Of a DNA stretch of 35,626 nucleotides, positions 6,508 through 35,626 are shown in pieces. This DNA comes from Rhodospirillaceae bacterium (GTDB lineage: Bacteria; Pseudomonadota; Alphaproteobacteria; GCA-2731375), in the NCBI GenBank assembly GCA_002731375.1, contig PCBT01000099.1:1662-37287 (forward strand), given 5' to 3'. The notes under the pieces are model-generated. The model ran no database searches, was not told the origin of the DNA, and saw only the letters and a program-made list of their open reading frames with translations. Within the stretch, counting starts at the first letter, position 1. Each line of letters starts with the position of its first letter. A program made the position numbers and the translations under genes.

Positions 6508-7647
6508 GTGAGCAATTCCGAAGCAGCAAACAGCAAACTCATCGGCCGGCCCGGCTCTCGCTGGAATTTGTTGACGCCGGCGCTAATCCTGGACCTGGAT
6601 GCATTGGAAGCCAATATCGCCGCCATGGCAGACTGGGCCAAGGCTGGCGGCTTCGCATTGCGTCCCCATGGTAAGTCCCACAAATCACCCGACATCGCCC
6701 GGCGCCAGGCAACCGCTGGCGCCGTTGGCCTGTGTTGCGCCTCGTTAAGAGAGGCGCAGGTGATGGCAGCGCACAACATTAAGGGCCTGTTGATCACCAC
6801 GCCACTCGCGCCGGGCAAGGCGCCGCTGGTTATTGAGCTGATTAAGAATGGTGGCGATGTGGCTGTGGTCGCTGATCATGCTGAGTTAGTGGCGGCTTAT
6901 GGTGCGGCGGCGCAGGCAGCGGGCGTGACATTGGACATCTTCGTTGATCTGGATGTGGGCTTGGGCCGTACCGGCACACCGTCGGCCCAGATCGCGATCG
7001 AACTGGCCGGACAGATTTCCGCGCACCCTGCGCTAAACTATGCCGGCGTGCAGGGGTATATGGGGCACCTACAGCACATCGACCGTCACGCGGAGCGGCG
7101 CGACCGCCTAGACGGAGATACCGTGGATTTACAGGCCAAAGTCGACGCCTTGATCAAAGCTAACCTGCCGCCACCCGTGGTCTCAGGCGGCGGTACGGGT
7201 ACCCATCGCCTGGACGCGGAATATGGCACCCTGGGTGAATTCCAGGTCGGCTCCTACCTGTTCATGGACGTGCAGTATCTGACAGTGCAGCAGTCGGAGG
7301 CAGACGATAAACCTTACGCCGCCTCGTTGTTCGTGCAGACCAGCGTGGTCAACATCAATCACCCCGGCTATGCGGTCACCGATGCCGGCCTAAAATCCTT
7401 CGCCACCGACGGCCCCTTCCCCATTATCGCGCGCGGCGCGCCGGCAGGCGCCAGCTACCGCTATATGGGTGATGAACACGGCGCCATTGACTACGGGAGC
7501 GGTTCCGAAAGACTGACCCTTGGCGACAGGGTTGAATGCGTTGCCCCCCATTGCGATCCAAATGTCAATCTGTTCAACGACTATCACGTGGTGCGCGGTG
7601 ATACGTTGGTGGAGATCTGGCCCGTCGCGGCGCGCGGCAACAGCTAG
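6508..7647 (+). CDS. DSD1-family PLP enzyme (D-threonine aldolase / D-serine dehydratase-like)
   Basis: This 379-residue protein has an alanine-racemase-type N-terminal barrel: LTPALILDLDALEANIA, then LRPHGKSHKSPDIARRQ, in which one Lys is the PLP Schiff-base residue. VSGGGTGTH is the PLP phosphate loop. The C-terminal beta domain ends with HCDPNVNLFNDYHVV, whose His and Asp bind the divalent metal in this family. Members cleave D-threonine or other beta-hydroxy-D-amino acids, or dehydrate D-serine; the sequence does not separate these. The start is GTG 6508, supported by GGAG seven bases upstream. It is the first gene of a plus-strand operon with an MFS exporter 29 bases downstream. Confidence 0.85.
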   Translation: MSNSEAANSKLIGRPGSRWNLLTPALILDLDALEANIAAMADWAKAGGFALRPHGKSHKSPDIARRQATAGAVGLCCASLREAQVMAAHNIKGLLITTPLAPGKAPLVIELIKNGGDVAVVADHAELVAAYGAAAQAAGVTLDIFVDLDVGLGRTGTPSAQIAIELAGQISAHPALNYAGVQGYMGHLQHIDRHAERRDRLDGDTVDLQAKVDALIKANLPPPVVSGGGTGTHRLDAEYGTLGEFQVGSYLFMDVQYLTVQQSEADDKPYAASLFVQTSVVNINHPGYAVTDAGLKSFATDGPFPIIARGAPAGASYRYMGDEHGAIDYGSGSERLTLGDRVECVAPHCDPNVNLFNDYHVVRGDTLVEIWPVAARGNS

Positions 7648-23383: not shown

Positions 23384-24259
23384 TCAATTCAGCAGACCCG
23401 CATGCCGGAGGGCGACATCAATCTCCTCCGCCGTATCCTCGGTCAATGGCACCACCGGCAGGCGGGCCTCTGCCTCGCACAGGCCCAGGCGCCAGGCGGC
23501 GAATTTTACGCCCGCCGGGCTAGGCTCCAGAAACAGCGCCACATGCAGGGGCATCAGGCGGTCGTGCAATTGCAGGGCCAGAGCGTAATCGCCATCCGTG
23601 CAAGCAGCCTGAAATTCCGCGCATAGTTTCGGCGCCACATTTGCGCTCACGGAAATGCAGCCATGGCCGCCCTGGGAATTATAGGCCAAGGCCGTGCCGT
23701 CCTCGCCCGAGAGGTGACAGAAGTCGGAGCCGAGCAACAGGCGTTCCCGGCTGACCCGGGCAACATCGCCGGTGGCATCCTTGACGCCAACAATGCGAGG
23801 AAGTTCCGACAGACGCTGCATGGTAGAGGGCAGAATATCGACAATGGCGCGGGGCGGTATGTTGTAGACGATAATCGGGATGTTGGAGGAATCGTGCAGC
23901 GCCTTGAAATGCTGATACAGCCCCTCCTGGTTCGGGCGGTTATAGTACCCCGCCACATGCAACACCCCGTCCGCACCCGCGACCTGGGCATGCTGGGTCA
24001 AGGCCACTGCCTCGGCCGTATTGTTCGACCCCGCACCGGCAATAACCGGCAGGCGGCCCGCCGCCTGCTTGACCACTAGTTCGACCACCCGACCGTGCTC
24101 TTCATGAGACAACGTGGGGCTTTCCCCCGTGGTGCCGCACGGGACGATACCGTTGGTGCCTTGCTCAACATGCCAATCGACAAGTTTGCACAGCGCGTCT
24201 TCATCCACCTGACCATCACGGAATGGTGTGATAAGCGCAACAATCGAGCCCTTGAACAT
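23384..24259 (-). CDS. dapA: 4-hydroxy-tetrahydrodipicolinate synthase
   Basis: This 291-residue TIM-barrel aldolase condenses pyruvate with aspartate semialdehyde in lysine and peptidoglycan precursor synthesis. Seen are GTTGES (Thr pair of the catalytic triad), IVYNIPPR (Tyr and Arg), and IVGVKDATGD with the Schiff-base Lys. The interface segment normally written TPYYNxPxQEGLYxHF is here AGYYNRPNQEGLYQHF; the Tyr is kept but Thr-Pro is replaced by Ala-Gly. AGGAGA sits seven bases before ATG 24259. It diverges from slt; the 109-base spacer contains TATAAC and an AAGTT-TGGCG-AACTT inverted repeat that may belong to the promoters. Confidence 0.95.
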   Translation of the reverse strand: MFKGSIVALITPFRDGQVDEDALCKLVDWHVEQGTNGIVPCGTTGESPTLSHEEHGRVVELVVKQAAGRLPVIAGAGSNNTAEAVALTQHAQVAGADGVLHVAGYYNRPNQEGLYQHFKALHDSSNIPIIVYNIPPRAIVDILPSTMQRLSELPRIVGVKDATGDVARVSRERLLLGSDFCHLSGEDGTALAYNSQGGHGCISVSANVAPKLCAEFQAACTDGDYALALQLHDRLMPLHVALFLEPSPAGVKFAAWRLGLCEAEARLPVVPLTEDTAEEIDVALRHAGLLN

Positions 24260-24368: not shown

Positions 24369-26429
24369 TTGATCAGTAATATATCGGCTGCGTGCTTTGG
24401 CTCCAATATCCTACGCCGCGCCGTTGCGGCAATAATGCTTGCGTTTATATTGCTTATTCCGGGCCTGGCATTGCCGGTGGGTGGCGGCGCAATAGCGCAG
24501 ATCGCGAACAATTTGCTGTCCCATGACGACCGAGCCTACTACCGCAAGGCCTACCGAGCGGCCAAGAAAAAGGATTGGCCCGGAGCCCATCGCCTGGCAC
24601 GGCGGGCGAAAGACCCCCTGCCCGCCAAGGCCCTGCGCTGGCTGAATTATCGGGAAAGCGGCAATCGGGTCAGCTTCGCCGAAATTTCCGGCTTCCTGGA
24701 CGCCAACCCGGCCTGGCCCTCGCGCCGGCGTTTAATCCAGCGGGCGGAAGAGGCGATGGAGAAAAGCCGGGTCAGCGACCAAACCGCGCTGGACTGGTTT
24801 AGCCTGCACCACCCGCTGTCGGGGCCCGGTCAAATCCGTCTGGCCGAGGCCATGCTGGCCAACGGCATGCAGGAAGACGGCTTGCAATGGCTGCGCTATG
24901 CCTGGATCAACAATGTCTTCGCCCGACGGCAATCGAAAAGGCTGTACCGCCGCTACCGCAAAACGTTCACCATGGACGACCATATTGCGCGCCTGGATCA
25001 TCTGCTGTGGCAGGGACGCCGCTATTCCGCCCGACGGCTGTACACCGTGGTGCCCAAGAACTACCGCAAACTGGCCGAGGCACGGGAAAGCCTGATGGTG
25101 CGGGGGCCGGGCGTGGACAGCAAGATCCGCGCGGTGCCGGCCAATTTATTGAACGACGGCGGTTTGAACTATGAGCGCGTGCGTTGGCGGCGGCGCAAGA
25201 ATTTGGACAAGACCGCCCGCGAGCTGCTGTTGATACCGCGTCCCGAGCTTGGCCCACGGCCGGAAAAATGGTGGCTGGAGCGCCATATTCAGGCCCGTGG
25301 CGCCTTGCGCGAGAAGAATGCGGCACTGGCCTACCGCTTGGCCGCAAGCCATGGCCAGGTGCCGGGACGTTTCAGCTTCGCCCAGGCGGAATGGCTATCG
25401 GGCTGGATCGCGCTACGCTTTCTAGACAATAGTGCCCAGGCCCTACGCCATTTCGCCGCGCTCTATAACAATGTCCGCTTTCCCGTTAGTCTGGCCCGGG
25501 CCGCCTATTGGGCGGGACGGGCCAATATCGCCATGGGCCGTCCTATCGATGCGAAGAAATGGTACCAGGCCGCCGGGCGCTATCCCTCTACCTATTACGG
25601 CCAGCTTGCCATTCAGGCGCTGGGCCCAAAGGCAGTTTGGCGCATGCCGCGGGAGCCGTCTCCACGCGATGGGGTCATGCAGCAATTTAACAGCCGAGAA
25701 ATAGTTCGATTGAGCCGCATTTTTATGGAGCTGAAGCAGGAGGATCATTTGCGGCCCTTCATCCTGCATTTGGCCCGCAGCGCGGAGGACGCTGATGGGC
25801 GCCTGCTGGCGGCCCGCCTTGGCCAGGCCCTGGGCCAGCCGGCCCTGGCGGTTCGGGCGGCGAAACTATCGCTGCGCGCCGGCACTTTGCTACCGCGCAC
25901 CGGCTATCCCATTTTATCGGACCTGCCGCCCATGCCGGTCGAAGCCGCCCTGGCACATGCGGTCGCCCGCCAGGAAAGCGAGTTTAATCCCCGCGCCGTA
26001 TCTTCCGCCTCAGCCCGGGGCCTGATGCAGTTGCTACCGCGCACCGCCCGCAAGGTGGCCAAGAAGCTGCGCCTGCGTTATCGCCAGGACCGCTTGTTCG
26101 ATGGCCGCTACAACATGCGCCTAGGTACCGACTATCTTAGCCAACTGGTCAAGGCCTATCACGGCTCTTACATCATGGCATTGGCGGCCTATAACGCCGG
26201 CCCAAACCGGGTGGACCGCTGGCGGCGGAAAAACGGCGATCCACGCAAGGACAATGTCGATCCTATTGACTGGATCGAGGCCATTCCCATTTCCGAGACG
26301 CGAAACTATGTACAGCGGGTGCTTGAAAATCTGCAGGTCTACCGTTGGCGTTTAAATCCCAAGGGGGCGAAGCTGGCTTTGCTCCAGGATTTGCACCGCA
26401 ACCGCCTGCCGCATCCAGATGGCGCATGA
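24369..26429 (+). CDS. slt: Soluble lytic murein transglycosylase
   Basis: This protein of about 686 residues has a signal-peptide-like start (RR followed by AVAAIMLAFILLIPGLALPVG), a long alpha-helical superhelix of the Slt70 U-domain type up to about residue 500, and a C-terminal lysozyme-like catalytic domain. Catalytic hallmarks are VARQESEFNPRAVS (active-site Glu), ASARGLMQLLP and ALAAYNAGPNRVDRW. It cleaves peptidoglycan with formation of 1,6-anhydromuramic acid in the periplasm. The start is uncertain: TTG 24369 includes the basic n-region, whereas ATG 24435 shortens it, and neither has a clear ribosome site. Its 3' end overlaps the open frame of a cyclic-nucleotide-binding relic on the other strand. 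Confidence 0.92.
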   Translation: MISNISAACFGSNILRRAVAAIMLAFILLIPGLALPVGGGAIAQIANNLLSHDDRAYYRKAYRAAKKKDWPGAHRLARRAKDPLPAKALRWLNYRESGNRVSFAEISGFLDANPAWPSRRRLIQRAEEAMEKSRVSDQTALDWFSLHHPLSGPGQIRLAEAMLANGMQEDGLQWLRYAWINNVFARRQSKRLYRRYRKTFTMDDHIARLDHLLWQGRRYSARRLYTVVPKNYRKLAEARESLMVRGPGVDSKIRAVPANLLNDGGLNYERVRWRRRKNLDKTARELLLIPRPELGPRPEKWWLERHIQARGALREKNAALAYRLAASHGQVPGRFSFAQAEWLSGWIALRFLDNSAQALRHFAALYNNVRFPVSLARAAYWAGRANIAMGRPIDAKKWYQAAGRYPSTYYGQLAIQALGPKAVWRMPREPSPRDGVMQQFNSREIVRLSRIFMELKQEDHLRPFILHLARSAEDADGRLLAARLGQALGQPALAVRAAKLSLRAGTLLPRTGYPILSDLPPMPVEAALAHAVARQESEFNPRAVSSASARGLMQLLPRTARKVAKKLRLRYRQDRLFDGRYNMRLGTDYLSQLVKAYHGSYIMALAAYNAGPNRVDRWRRKNGDPRKDNVDPIDWIEAIPISETRNYVQRVLENLQVYRWRLNPKGAKLALLQDLHRNRLPHPDGA

Positions 26430-26679
26430 ATTCCCCGCGCAGGATCTCCAATACCACCGACTTCTCCAAAGCAATGGCGAAGGCCCAGTGCGGGCGGTTC
26501 TCCAACAAAGCGACTTCGCCAAATACCTCGCCAACCTTCACGTCCACCAGGGTCTTGGATTTTCCGTTTTGCGCCGCAACACAGATTCGGACCAAACCGC
26601 TGCGTAGGAAGTAGACCAACGCGGCGGCATCACCTTCATCAAATACATCTGAACGGCTCAAAATTTCTGCGGGTGAACG
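26407..26679 (-). pseudogene. Truncated cyclic-nucleotide-binding (CRP-like) domain
   Basis: The minus strand reads VFDEGDAAALVYFLRSGLV, then VKVGEVFGEVALLENRPHWA and VVLEILRGEF, the usual EGD...YxLxSGxV and FGExALL...RPxxAxxxAxxxxxxLxIxxxxF plan of a cyclic-nucleotide-binding beta-roll. The phosphate-cassette Arg (RPRxA in binders) is His here. Similarity starts abruptly after an in-frame TAA (26680-26682), and it ends where the frame enters antisense of slt; the open frame continues to 26263 as meaningless sequence. No helix-turn-helix or other effector domain is left. Bases 26683-26836 hold no gene; they are AT-rich and likely carry the promoter of the CoA-transferase operon. Confidence 0.5.
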
Positions 26680-26836: not shown

Positions 26837-28027
26837 ATGGGCATGCTGGACGGCGTCAAGATCGTCAGCTTCAATCACTTCATGCTTGGTCCGCTGGCCG
26901 CGCAAAATCTTGGCGACCTGGGCGCCGATGTCGTCATGATCGAGCCGATCGGCGGTGCTTTTCAGCGCCAATGGGGCGGCGGCAATACTTTCGTAGGCGG
27001 GGAAAGCGTCGCCTTCCTGGTAGCCAACCGCAACAAACGCAGCATCGCCCTTGACCTAAAATTGGATGCCGGCCGCGATATCGCCCTGGCGCTAATGAAG
27101 GATGCCGACGTGGTGATGGAGAATTTTCGCCCCGACATCATGGGCCGCCTCGGCCTTGGCTGGGAGACGGCCCGCGCCGCCAACCCCCGGCTGATTTTCG
27201 CGTCTGCCTCCGGTTGGGGTTCCAGCGGTCCTTACGTCTCGCGCCCTGGTCAGGATCTGCTTATCCAAGCACGTTCGGGCCTGGCGATGATCACGGGCAG
27301 CAAATCAGCACCGCCGACACCCGTCGGCGTCTCGGCCACGGACCATCACGGCGGCGTCGTATTTGCCTCCGCCATCCTCGCTGCCCTGGTACGCCAGGGC
27401 CGTACGGGCAAGGGTGCGCGGGTGGAGGTTGACTTGATGTCAGCCGCACTTGATCTGCAGCAGGAATCCATCGTCGCCCATCTGAACGGCCCTCGTGAAC
27501 GCGGCATACGCTCGCCTGAACATATCGCCGGCTGGCTCTATCAGGCGCCCTATGGCTTCTACCGCACAACGAATGGCCACATCGCCATCTCGATCTGTAC
27601 CCTGGAACTGCTTGGCACGGTGCTTGAGTGTCCGGAATTGGCCGCCATGACCGAGGCGGATGGCTGGGAGCAGCGCGAGGAGGCCACCGGATTGATCCAA
27701 GACGTCATCGAAGGCGACAGCACCGAGGCATGGTGTGATAAGTTCGAGGCGCACGCCATCTGGCATGCACCGGTCATGGGCTATGACGCAGTGGTGTCCG
27801 ATCCTCAGATCCGCCACAACGGCAATCTGGTGAAGAGCAAGCTGGCAAGTGGCGAGACGGTTACCCTGGTGGCGCACGCCGCCAGCTACGACGGTGAACG
27901 TCCGGGCGTGCGTCTCGCACCACAACCCATCGGCGCCCAGAGCCGGGAAATCCTGATGGAGCTTGGCTATGACGGTGCGCGGATCAGACAATTGGAAAGT
28001 GATGGTGCCGTAGCAATGGCAGATTAG
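26837..28027 (+). CDS. CaiB/BaiF family III CoA-transferase
   Basis: This 396-residue protein has the family opening GMLDGVKIVSFNHFMLGPLA, LGADVVMIE, NRNKRSIALDLK, NFRPDIMGRLGLG and the active-site segment GQDLLIQARSGLA, in which Asp140 should form the acyl-enzyme anhydride. Members move CoA between carboxylic acids, for example carnitine, formate/oxalate or 2-hydroxy acids; the acid used here is unknown. ATG 26837 is chosen because GAGGAG lies eight bases upstream; the frame is open 43 codons further up without support. It starts a four-gene operon, with 22 bases to the dehalogenase gene. Confidence 0.9.
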   Translation: MGMLDGVKIVSFNHFMLGPLAAQNLGDLGADVVMIEPIGGAFQRQWGGGNTFVGGESVAFLVANRNKRSIALDLKLDAGRDIALALMKDADVVMENFRPDIMGRLGLGWETARAANPRLIFASASGWGSSGPYVSRPGQDLLIQARSGLAMITGSKSAPPTPVGVSATDHHGGVVFASAILAALVRQGRTGKGARVEVDLMSAALDLQQESIVAHLNGPRERGIRSPEHIAGWLYQAPYGFYRTTNGHIAISICTLELLGTVLECPELAAMTEADGWEQREEATGLIQDVIEGDSTEAWCDKFEAHAIWHAPVMGYDAVVSDPQIRHNGNLVKSKLASGETVTLVAHAASYDGERPGVRLAPQPIGAQSREILMELGYDGARIRQLESDGAVAMAD

Positions 28028-28049
28028 AATTAATTTTTGGGGATTGATC

Positions 28050-28742
28050 ATGAATACGAACAGGCTGGAGAATATCGGCGCCTGCGTCTTTGATGCCTAT
28101 GGCACCCTGTTCGATGTTAATGCCGCCGCACAGCATTGCACCGCCGATCTGGGTGACAAATGGCTACCCCTGGCAGAACTGTGGCGGGGCCGGCAACTGC
28201 AATACACCTGGCTGCGCAGCTTGATGGAGAATTACGCGGATTTCTGGCAGGTCACGGGGGAAGCCCTGGACTTCGCCATGGAAGCCTTGGAGATCAAGGA
28301 CCCCGCGCTGCGGGAACGTCTGATGGAACTGTATCTGCAACTGGATGCCTATCCAGAAGTTGGCGATGTGCTACGCCAGTTGCGTGACGGTGGCATGAAG
28401 ACGGCCATACTTTCCAACGGTTCACCCAAGACGTTGCAAGCGGCAGTCGACAATGCCAGCATTAGCGATGCCCTGGATACGGTGATCTCAGTTGACCAAA
28501 TCAAGGTCTACAAGACTGCGCCGGCGGTCTATCAATTGGCCGTGGATCAACTTGGCGTCAAGGCATCGACCATCAGCTTCCAATCCTCAAATGCCTGGGA
28601 TGCCCATGCGGCCTCGAACTTCGGCTTTCGTGTGGTCTGGATAAACCGCTTTTCACAAGCCAGGGAGCGACTGCCCGGCAACCCGGATATCATGCTGGAT
28701 AATCTGAAGCCCTTGCCCGCAATCGTCGGCTTGAGGAACTGA
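28050..28742 (+). CDS. Haloacid dehalogenase, type II (HAD superfamily)
   Basis: This 230-residue HAD enzyme has nucleophile motif FDAYGTLFDVNA (Asp15), an RGRQLQYTWLRSLM segment typical of L-2-haloacid dehalogenases (with the substrate-carboxylate Arg), motif II SNGSPK, motif III Lys in KVYKTAP and the SSNAWDAHAASNFG segment (Ser, Asn and Asp of the type II active site). By family it would turn (S)-2-haloacids into (R)-2-hydroxyacids by an ester intermediate. The usual YKP-x-P is YKTAP here. ATG 28050 has GGGGA seven bases upstream. It sits two bases before the alpha/beta hydrolase gene in the same operon. Confidence 0.9.
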   Translation: MNTNRLENIGACVFDAYGTLFDVNAAAQHCTADLGDKWLPLAELWRGRQLQYTWLRSLMENYADFWQVTGEALDFAMEALEIKDPALRERLMELYLQLDAYPEVGDVLRQLRDGGMKTAILSNGSPKTLQAAVDNASISDALDTVISVDQIKVYKTAPAVYQLAVDQLGVKASTISFQSSNAWDAHAASNFGFRVVWINRFSQARERLPGNPDIMLDNLKPLPAIVGLRN

Positions 28743-28744
28743 GG

Positions 28745-29611
28745 ATGGACTTTCAGCAACGGCGCTTCCGGGCCCAGGACGATCTGGAGCTATCCTACCG
28801 CGACTATGGCAACAGCCGGACCGGAACGACACCGGTCCTGTGTCTGGCTGGCCTGACCCGTAGCGCGCCTGATTTCCATGAACTGGCCTTGCACCTATGC
28901 CCAAGGCGGCGGGTACTGGCCCTGGACCTGCGCGGACGGGGGCAGTCCGCCCATGATCCAAATCCCGGCAACTACAACCCGGCGACATATCTTTCCGATA
29001 TTGGCCATTTACTGAACGTCACCGCGTGTCATCGGGTCATCGTCATCGGCACTTCGTTGGGCGGCATCCTAACCATGGCCCTGGGCGCGGCGCGGCCGAC
29101 GGCCCTGGCGGGCGTGATCCTGAACGACATCGGGCCCGAGATCGATCCAACCGGCGTCGCTCGCATCTCCGGCTATGCGGGCAAGACGCCGGCGGCGATG
29201 GATCTGGAGCAAGCCGCCGAACATCAGCGGCAATTGTTCAGCGCGGCCTATCCCGATTGGGACGAGGAACAATGGCGGGATGAAGCCTTGCGTACCTTCC
29301 GCCAGCGCGAGGACGGCATGTTGGTGCAAAACTATGATCCAGCCGTTGCCGACATGGTGACGGATCAAGGTGACAGCCCGGTTGATTTCTGGCCCTACTT
29401 CAAATCTCTGGCGCATCTCCCCACACTGGCCATTCGCGGCGCGCTATCCGACATTCTTAGCGCCGCCACCTTTGCCCGCATGGCGGAGGAGAAGCCAGAC
29501 CTGATCCAAGTCAGCCTGCCCAATCGCGGCCATGTACCGCAACTGACCGAACCGGCCTGCATCGCGGCCATAGATGATTTTCTGGAGACCTATGGACAAG
29601 CCAAACATTGA
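28745..29611 (+). CDS. Alpha/beta hydrolase
   Basis: This 288-residue protein has the alpha/beta-hydrolase fold: oxyanion segment LCLAGLTRSAPDFHELA in place of the HG dipeptide, DLRGRGQS, nucleophile elbow GTSLGG (Ser104), LNDIGPEIDP, and the late GHVPQL with the catalytic His. The LAGLTRS-type oxyanion strand and the LNDIGPE segment are typical of an uncharacterised proteobacterial group annotated as hydrolases or esterases. Its ester or amide substrate is not known. The gene begins two bases after the dehalogenase stop, and its last 20 bases overlap the next gene. Confidence 0.85.
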   Translation: MDFQQRRFRAQDDLELSYRDYGNSRTGTTPVLCLAGLTRSAPDFHELALHLCPRRRVLALDLRGRGQSAHDPNPGNYNPATYLSDIGHLLNVTACHRVIVIGTSLGGILTMALGAARPTALAGVILNDIGPEIDPTGVARISGYAGKTPAAMDLEQAAEHQRQLFSAAYPDWDEEQWRDEALRTFRQREDGMLVQNYDPAVADMVTDQGDSPVDFWPYFKSLAHLPTLAIRGALSDILSAATFARMAEEKPDLIQVSLPNRGHVPQLTEPACIAAIDDFLETYGQAKH

Positions 29612-30584
29612 TTTGCCAGTAAGTTATGACGACGTAGCAGCGGCAGCCCAGGTTCTGCATGGCATCGCCGTACGCACCCCGCTATTGGAGAACAGGACAT
29701 TGAACGAGGGCGTGGGCGGGCGTCTATTCTTTAAGCCGGAACCACTGCAGATCACCGGCTCGTTCAAGTTTCGTGGCGCCTACAACCATATCAGCCGCCT
29801 GGATACAGCCACCCGACGCGCCGGGGTGATCGCCTATTCCTCTGGTAACCATGGTCAAGGCGTGGCTGCCGCAGCCCATTATTGCGATGCCCCCGCCCTG
29901 ATCGTCATGCCTGAAGATGCGCCAGTGGTAAAGAAGCAAGGCACCGCTGCATGGGGGGCCGAGATCGTCACCTATGACCGCTGGGGCGCGCAGACACGCG
30001 AAGCCATCGCCGCCCAATTGTCGGAGGAACACGGCCTCGCCATAGTCCGTCCATACGATGACCGCCTCATCATGGCCGGCCAGGGAACTCTGGGCCTAGA
30101 AATAGTCGAACAGCTGGCGGAATGTGGCCTGGTGCCCGACCGCGTCTTGGTGCCCTGCGGCGGCGGTGGTCTGACAGCAGGCGTGGCCACGGCGGTTAAG
30201 CATCACTGTCCCGAGGCAGAGATCCATACCGTCGAGCCCATGGGTTTTGATGACACCGCCCGCTCCCTGGCCAGCCAATCCCGCCAGAGCAACCCAGCGG
30301 GCGTCAACAGTTTCTGCGATGCTCTGCTGGCGCCAGAGCCGGGCCAGATTACATTTCAGGTTAATCAATGGCTCTGCAGTAGCGGCCTAGTGGTCAGCGA
30401 TGAAGACGTCGCCGTCGCCATGGCAACAGCATTTGGCCAGTTGAAACTGGCGGTCGAACCAGGCGGTGCCACCGCCCTCGCCGCCGCCCTTGCAGGCAAG
30501 CTGGATTTGAGCAAAGGTAACACGGTCATCGTCCTGTCGGGGGGCAATGTCGATCCGGCGCAGTTCGCTGGAATCCTGGGCTAA
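29592..30584 (+). CDS. Threonine dehydratase-like PLP enzyme (fold type II)
   Basis: This 330-residue protein has the serine/threonine ammonia-lyase layout: RTPLLE, FFKPEPLQITGSFKFRGA with PLP Lys59, SSGNHGQGVA, the CGGGGLTAGVA phosphate-binding loop and LSGGNVDP at the C-terminal end. No regulatory ACT domain is present, so it resembles catabolic threonine dehydratase, serine racemase, hydroxyaspartate dehydratase or EutB-type enzymes. It would release ammonia and a 2-oxoacid from a beta-hydroxy amino acid. ATG 29592 has GGAG five bases upstream and lies inside the preceding gene, which suggests translational coupling. It ends the 26837-30584 operon. Confidence 0.88.
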   Translation: MDKPNIDLPVSYDDVAAAAQVLHGIAVRTPLLENRTLNEGVGGRLFFKPEPLQITGSFKFRGAYNHISRLDTATRRAGVIAYSSGNHGQGVAAAAHYCDAPALIVMPEDAPVVKKQGTAAWGAEIVTYDRWGAQTREAIAAQLSEEHGLAIVRPYDDRLIMAGQGTLGLEIVEQLAECGLVPDRVLVPCGGGGLTAGVATAVKHHCPEAEIHTVEPMGFDDTARSLASQSRQSNPAGVNSFCDALLAPEPGQITFQVNQWLCSSGLVVSDEDVAVAMATAFGQLKLAVEPGGATALAAALAGKLDLSKGNTVIVLSGGNVDPAQFAGILG

Positions 30585-34628: not shown

Positions 34629-34718
34629 CTACCGCAGGGTAGCCAGCACGCTATCTAGCTTACCCTGCACGGAAGCCTTCTGATCACGGCTCCAACGACG
34701 ACGGGCCTTGCAGGTCAT
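34629..34718 (-). CDS. Possible small basic ORF coupled to the caspase-like gene
   Basis: A 29-codon ORF starts at an ATG that overlaps the stop of the caspase-like gene (TGATG). Its product starts MTCKARRRWSRDQKAS and ends LDSVLATLR; it is strongly basic in the first half. The RRRWSxDxK run vaguely recalls DNA-binding segments of transposase small subunits, but it is too short to place. The 3' end contains an 8-base inverted repeat (GCAGGGTA 34634-34641 with TACCCTGC 34661-34668). It could be a chance ORF or the end of a degraded gene. Confidence 0.25.
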   Translation of the reverse strand: MTCKARRRWSRDQKASVQGKLDSVLATLR

Positions 34719-35626
34719 CACTTATACAACTTCATGACACATTTGCCGTGTTCTACCGTGCCCTCAGTAAATCCAAGTTGAGAGCATTGTTTTTTTGCTC
34801 CTTCTAGCGCATCTGCACCTTCAGTAATGCTCGGCTGCTCCGTAATTGCACCCCTCCGAACAAGCAAAAAATCCCCTCCGTCATGCTCTGCTTTTCGAAT
34901 ATCGGAATATTCAGGAGTTTGATCCGAACCAAGCACAACCCGCCTCTTTAGAGCTTCGAAGACCGCAGTGCCATCGATGACGCTCTGATTTTCCTTCAGC
35001 ACATCCAGCAAAGCTTTGGCAAATACAGAGTTCTTTCCACCACCGCCATCCATCACAGGCTCTATGCCACCAGATACCAGAGCCGTGCGAGAGCGCTTTT
35101 GGGATATCCGTTTTAACCAGACATCACGATCTTTGGCTGTGCGTAATCCCTTTCCAGTCGAACGCACCAAAGTTCCGGAGTAACAGGAATCCGCAATTAT
35201 CATGACATGCTTGGCCCCTATTGCGTTGAGCATATTGGTTACGTCCGAATTGGAAATCCAGTTCGATGGATCTTCTTCTGCCGCATCAACTGGTTGCCAA
35301 AATCCAACACCCGTATATTCATCAACTATGCCATGCCCGGCATAATAAATAAGAAGGTTGCTTCCCCATGTAAGTTCTGCCCGGAGCTTAACCAATGCAC
35401 TGAAAATATCAGATCGGGTCGCATTCAGGAGAGTGCTCACCTGAAAGTCGTACATCCGCGTCAGTACAGACGATACATCCTTTGCATCCCCCACGGCATT
35501 TTTGAGTTTTGGCAGGTGGGTATAATTGTTGTTGCCGATCACCAGTGCATGGTAGTCGCCGAATTCAATGGAGGGTATAGCACCTGCCGGCTTGTTCTGT
35601 TCCGCCAGGCGCTTTTGTTCAGATCC
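34718..35626 (-). CDS. Caspase-like (peptidase C14 family) protein, N-terminus outside the window
   Basis: The frame is open to the window edge, so at least 302 residues belong to a longer protein. The first visible part (EQKRLAEQNK) looks like the end of a charged helix or coiled coil. The peptidase domain follows: YHALVIGNNNY, LKNAVGDAKDV, LIYYAGHGI with the catalytic His, MIIADSCYSG with the catalytic Cys, and TALVSGGIEPV. Both dyad residues are intact, so protease activity is expected, usually after Arg or Lys in prokaryotic members. The last 28 residues form a separate motif, CSQLGFTEGTVEHGKCVMKL, seen at the ends of several bacterial envelope or Sel1-type proteins. Base use is visibly more AT-rich than the housekeeping block, which hints at an accessory origin. 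Confidence 0.85.
   Translation of the reverse strand, partial: GSEQKRLAEQNKPAGAIPSIEFGDYHALVIGNNNYTHLPKLKNAVGDAKDVSSVLTRMYDFQVSTLLNATRSDIFSALVKLRAELTWGSNLLIYYAGHGIVDEYTGVGFWQPVDAAEEDPSNWISNSDVTNMLNAIGAKHVMIIADSCYSGTLVRSTGKGLRTAKDRDVWLKRISQKRSRTALVSGGIEPVMDGGGGKNSVFAKALLDVLKENQSVIDGTAVFEALKRRVVLGSDQTPEYSDIRKAEHDGGDFLLVRRGAITEQPSITEGADALEGAKKQCSQLGFTEGTVEHGKCVMKLYK

Follow-up and report, generated by a model that had tools for sequence, protein, structure and literature searches.

Organization of the locus

The locus described here raises the question of whether four tightly packed genes, encoding a class III CoA-transferase, a haloacid dehalogenase-like protein (HAD), an alpha/beta hydrolase and a PALP enzyme, specify one catabolic pathway. 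They lie in a stretch of 35,626 nucleotides from a Rhodospirillaceae bacterium (hereafter the window), taken from contig C99 of a draft genome of 4.5 Mb in 115 contigs. All four ORFs are on the plus strand. The CoA-transferase gene runs from an ATG at 26837 to a stop codon ending at 28027 (CoA_transf_3, 302.9 bits), the HAD gene from 28050 to 28742 (HAD type II, TIGR01428, 213.7 bits against a cut-off of 125.4), the hydrolase gene from 28745 to 29611 (Abhydrolase_6, 58.7 bits) and the PALP gene from 29592 to 30584 (PALP, 228.6 bits), each likewise measured from its ATG to the end of its stop codon. On rechecking, the coordinates, the 22-base and 2-base gaps and the 20-base overlap given in the preliminary description all proved exact.

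Upstream on the same strand is slt, encoding an SLT lytic transglycosylase (24369 to 26429, PF01464), which is the ancestral upstream neighbour of the HAD gene; the ancestral neighbour of slt, a dapA-like gene named from its sequence without a family scan, occupies 23384 to 24259 on the minus strand. A small ORF for a cyclic-nucleotide-binding protein is also found on the minus strand at 26263 to 26661 (PF00027, 62.2 bits), and similar sequence occurs between slt and the CoA-transferase gene in two sister species, G004 and G007 (tblastn matches in the loci L282 and L285).

Our answer, to which we assign a probability of about 0.7, is that dapA-slt-HAD-hydrolase-PALP is an old alphaproteobacterial synteny block carrying a recent CoA-transferase insert, and that the HAD protein is a group A L-2-haloacid dehalogenase most likely acting alone.

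The HAD protein as a probable group A L-2-haloacid dehalogenase

The HAD protein has all nine residues that mark group A enzymes (D15, T19, R46, S122, K155, Y161, S179, N181 and D184). Replacing any one of them in L-DEX cuts activity, according to PMC4899344, and DTRSKYSND is given as the group A signature in PMC8490876. The set was complete in 164 of 181 HAD loci, and in two of the incomplete ones the sequence stops at a contig end. The predicted model (mean pLDDT 94.5) superimposed on DehIVa with a TM score of 0.93 and an rmsd of 1.3 at 42% identity, and a FastTree tree of 180 sequences placed DehIVa inside the HAD family. With DehIVa, L-DEX and DhlB, all of group A, the protein shares the nine residues and the fold; it differs from the group A dehalogenases in its conserved chromosomal slt/dapA neighbourhood, and in the alignment it has G47 where L-DEX has Q42.

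Phosphatases of this superfamily carry the motif DxD, with a second Asp two residues past the nucleophile. The window's protein reads D15-A16-Y17, and of 95 sequences at least 97% share Y17; a phosphatase was ruled out by the missing second Asp, and the view taken in the preliminary description, that this is a dehalogenase, is upheld as far as its residues go. Judged by sequence and model, the HAD protein is very probably a group A L-2-haloacid dehalogenase.

The mechanism best supported for it is the one established for the dehalogenase group (PMC4899344): Asp15 would attack C2 of a small L-2-haloacid and displace the halide, which Arg46 would receive, and water would then hydrolyse the ester to free the 2-hydroxyacid, such as glycolate from haloacetate. 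A related set of HAD proteins with confirmed catalytic residues still included one inactive enzyme, as stated in PMC12184663. The protein might instead have shifted to hydrolysis of another C2 substituent, for example an epoxide (cis-epoxysuccinate) or an azetidine ring, as in the solved HAD type II enzymes 8wmt, 8wbk and 3smv, and a product like a hydroxydiacid would fit the neighbouring genes. Such a shift is nevertheless very unlikely, since those enzymes are distant (8wmt 53.6 bits, against 193.4 for DehIVa) and the full group A dehalogenase set, Arg46 included, is in place.

The likeliest job of the HAD protein is the stand-alone removal of small 2-haloacids, by which it may protect against, or recycle, small natural haloacids. 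The functional model is ZgHAD of Zobellia galactanivorans, a group B member of the same enzyme class, for which PMC8490876 describes a knockout revealing a role in haloacetate tolerance, that is, protection by a single gene; ZgHAD belongs to another phylogenetic group, however, with about 23% identity to the window's protein in a structural alignment. Two genomes of 1.2 Mb with 31-32% G+C (G111 and G219) keep the HAD gene without its partners and with the nine residues complete. One of these two genomes looks SAR11-like from its neighbouring genes (cytochrome oxidase genes and others). In the FastTree tree, where many forks are weakly supported and many of the records from other phyla are metagenome bins, solo HADs of betaproteobacterial, acidobacterial and myxobacterial records nest among alphaproteobacterial cluster copies. 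Because these solo HADs sit among copies from trios, the gene seems to have moved into other phyla singly.

The hydrolase and the PALP enzyme

The hydrolase has Ser104, His263 and Asp236, together with Arg39 in the loop GLTR; among 31 sequences S104, H263 and R39 are invariant and D236 nearly so. Its predicted model (pLDDT 93.8) is nearest to the structures 3bwx, 4ose and 3kxp. Of these, 3bwx from Novosphingobium (TM 0.91, 42% identity) and 4ose from Rickettsia typhi (TM 0.87, 27% identity) are structural-genomics entries listed with no stated substrate. The enzyme would carry out a chemistry of its own, Ser-His-Asp hydrolysis. Dehalogenases of the alpha/beta-hydrolase fold use an Asp nucleophile in the nucleophile elbow, and a second dehalogenase of the fluoroacetate or haloalkane type was ruled out by Ser104, which lies in GTSLGG and is invariant in the 31 sequences.

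The nearest solved structures of the PALP enzyme are 1v71, 6lut and 1ve5, and K59, S84, E215 and D221 are conserved in no fewer than 97% of 61 sequences. The likeness to serine racemase and L-threo-3-hydroxyaspartate ammonia-lyase consists in these residues and in 1v71 and 6lut. By sequence the enzyme appears to be of the serine-racemase, hydroxyaspartate-dehydratase or threonine-deaminase type, and it would act on a small hydroxy amino acid, by PLP-dependent elimination or racemisation. It scored below the equivalog cut-offs of all families compared, including L-threo-3-hydroxyaspartate ammonia-lyase (NF005454, 302.2 bits against 452). The window contains both this BhcB-like enzyme and a BhcC-like ORF (6508 to 7647), which recall the beta-hydroxyaspartate cycle (BhcA-D). 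The two are 20 kb apart, and their scores, 205.9 of 550 for BhcB and 295.7 of a curated 690 for BhcC, are so far below the cut-offs that the PALP enzyme was ruled out as BhcB of a full cycle; the BhcB cut-off was passed by no gene of the window's own genome.

Conservation of the HAD-hydrolase-PALP trio

The trio of HAD, hydrolase and PALP genes stands behind slt in all 11 genomes of the genus, window included. Across the class, 92 of 289 genomes gave a HAD match at E <= 1e-30, and the surroundings of 89 of these loci were analysed, the window being counted apart and G125 and G182 omitted. A gene counted as a partner if it lay on the same strand no more than 4 kb downstream, a rule under which contig ends may conceal some; the HMMs for the three proteins were seeded from the same loci as were counted, with thresholds set by the analyst. 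By this count, both partners adjoin the HAD gene in 30 of the 89 loci, always in the same order and strand and with short gaps; 18 loci have the PALP gene only, 4 the hydrolase gene only and 37 neither, which gives the PALP gene in 48 and the hydrolase gene in 34. Either slt or dapA is near the HAD gene in 58 of the 89 loci, in many families; five full trios and two HAD-PALP pairs are located elsewhere. Four loci have slt-hydrolase-PALP without the HAD gene (L259, L264, L265 and L271). The adjacency of the three genes is more than chance, and they are co-directional and probably co-transcribed.

A scan of named genomes, limited to the top 80 of at least 588 relatives, found 15 trios, 10 loci with the PALP gene, 1 with the hydrolase gene and 54 with the HAD gene alone, 51 of these last being away from slt and dapA. 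One scan locus (L047), apparently on the same contig as that of G007, was counted in the scan set and omitted from the tree. Clustering of neighbours in these 80 loci, in 21 of which the ORF caller missed the HAD gene, revealed no neighbour common to all solo HADs; some neighbours recur in a few gammaproteobacterial loci. Sneathiella chungangensis and S. glossodoripedis are cultured carriers of the trio, and Skermanella aerolata carries the HAD-PALP pair. Within the limited set of papers searched, no description of this cluster was found.

Do the three genes form a pathway without the CoA-transferase? The hydrolase would release a substituted acid bound as ester, lactone or amide, the HAD protein would hydrolyse the C2 substituent and the PALP enzyme would deaminate a hydroxy amino acid. 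The constant arrangement in the 30 loci and the overlap of the hydrolase and PALP genes in the window agree with this, and five of the 30 trios being away from slt and dapA hints at a shared function. The genes nevertheless also occur apart, as is evident from the 18 loci without the hydrolase, the 4 without the PALP gene, the 37 without both and the four HAD-less loci; a tree-based test of coupled loss detected no link among losses of the trio genes, although with 5 supported pairs it was weak. We regard such a three-step pathway as unlikely. As the HAD, hydrolase and PALP genes each occur without the others, the proposal in the preliminary description that four enzymes act in series is not borne out.

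The CoA-transferase gene as a newcomer

The CoA-transferase gene lies between slt and the HAD gene in 3 of 15 family genomes, namely the window's, G004 and G007. Of the operon described in the preliminary description, HAD, hydrolase and PALP are borne out as a conserved cluster, and membership of the CoA-transferase is not supported; a neighbourhood search found the four-gene order outside the window only in these two sister species, close to an order conserved nowhere else. Five of the 11 genus genomes have no insert between slt and the HAD gene (G001, G002, G003, G006 and G010), two have a divergent flavin monooxygenase there (G005 and G009) and one has a TauD dioxygenase whose stop is 13 bases before the HAD start (G008). 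The interval resembles a hot spot for insertions. In G011 a 77% copy of the CoA-transferase is on another contig among ORFs resembling an enoyl-CoA hydratase and oxidoreductases, named from their sequences. Relatives at 48-53% identity were found in seven other genomes among the 289 of the class, six of which also have the HAD gene, never adjacent; an enoyl-CoA-hydratase-like gene, likewise named from sequence, is near the CoA-transferase relative in 6 of 8 loci, G011 included. The CoA-transferase gene is a late insertion between slt and the HAD gene.

The protein matches the Pfam family PF02515 and scores well below the curated cut-offs for the CoA:oxalate, formyl-CoA and succinate-glutarate enzymes (179.6 against 522, 165.9 against 504.2 and 167.2 against 750, respectively). 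There are 72 CoA_transf_3 matches in the window's genome, some of them fragments, and a single such neighbour is therefore a weak observation.

The gap between the CoA-transferase and HAD genes (28028 to 28049, plus strand) is 22 bases in the window, against about 91 in G004 and 85 in G007, a difference of some 63 to 69 bases. Each of the five insert-free genomes has a promoter-like site (TxGTCC or near, 16 bases, then a GATAAT-like element) that starts 61 to 68 bases before the HAD gene; behind the CoA-transferase gene this site is intact in G007, G004 has a changed second half, and the window lacks it, the segment that holds it in the relatives being missing. The pattern, drawn up after the alignment had been viewed and hence a description rather than an independent test, was looked for and not found in G005, G008, G009, G012 and G014, and occurs in G011 with a 14-base spacer. 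A generic scan for promoters and terminators found no more than chance would give (1 against 2.0 expected and 1 against 3.7 expected) and adds no separate evidence for the site. From these alignments the 22-base gap is likely a derived state: the CoA-transferase gene would have landed upstream of the HAD gene, and a later deletion would have taken what was presumably the old HAD promoter and left the HAD gene under read-through.

The genus has, separately, a conserved dehydratase-HAD-CoA-transferase operon, tightly coupled and with a different HAD. Because of this operon and of the trios away from slt and dapA, we kept as rivals both the three-step pathway and a single catabolic route of all four genes with CoA activation. 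The four-gene route can point, besides that operon, to the order common to G004 and G007, to the 22-base gap and to the conserved region around the catalytic Asp of class III enzymes. We give it very little credence, the CoA-transferase being missing at this place in 12 of the 15 family genomes, its relatives in the seven other class genomes never standing beside the HAD gene, and the sister species having gaps of 85-91 bases with the promoter-like site or its remains; as the gene is recent at the locus, a new four-step pathway is unlikely. It is also highly doubtful, if slightly less so, that the trio is an ancestral alphaproteobacterial module disposing of a natural, as yet unrecognised amino-acid derivative that is 2-substituted (halogenated or hydroxylated), and that the window's clade added CoA activation to this module, the two being fused by loss of the old HAD promoter.

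Implications

The 22-base gap can mislead, for the tight coupling of the CoA-transferase gene seems to have arisen recently in a single species. On the reading favoured here, an enzyme of a known dehalogenase group belongs to the old synteny of many Alphaproteobacteria, and two very small genomes keep it alone. The cultured carriers of the trio in Sneathiella make its role directly testable. Retention of the dehalogenase would point to small haloacids as a daily burden on these bacteria and not a pollutant niche.

Other genes in and around the window

An ORF encoding a 132-aa cyclic-nucleotide-binding protein (26263-26661, minus strand) overlaps the end of the lytic transglycosylase gene slt on the opposite strand. 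Among the genus loci, a similar sequence was found only in the two sister species G004 and G007, where it lies beside the CoA-transferase gene, and the matching stretch of G007 contains stop codons. At two loci from other genomes of the class (L264 and L265, in G043 and G173), two copies of the alpha/beta hydrolase gene stand in tandem with slt on one side and the PALP enzyme gene on the other, and there is no HAD gene.

Elsewhere in the window, the ORF at 6508-7647 (plus strand) matches the domains Ala_racemase_N and D-ser_dehydrat; its closest NCBIfam model is BhcC 3-hydroxy-D-aspartate aldolase, with 295.7 bits, under the cut-off of 690. A caspase-domain (Peptidase_C14) protein is encoded at 34718-35542 on the minus strand (69.2 bits).

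A second HAD operon in the genome

The whole genome (4.5 Mb) gave 72 matches to the class III CoA-transferase family CoA_transf_3, some of them fragments, apparently an unusually large set. A second HAD type II protein, HAD2, is encoded on contig C40 (locus L327, 2399-7990) and scores 158.0 bits against a cut-off of 125.4. Its gene is the middle one of three closely packed genes, preceded by one for an enolase-superfamily-like dehydratase and followed by one for a class III CoA-transferase, which it overlaps; 5' of this cluster are ORFs that, named from sequence, resemble enoyl-CoA hydratase and gamma-glutamyltransferase. The same three-gene order was also found in nine related genomes, G001, G002, G003, G004, G006, G007, G009, G010 and G011 (loci L328-L336), with the CoA-transferase gene cut by the contig end in G001 and a wider gap in G011. 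We consider the HAD2 operon a better candidate for a pathway combining a HAD enzyme and a CoA-transferase than the slt-HAD locus of the window.
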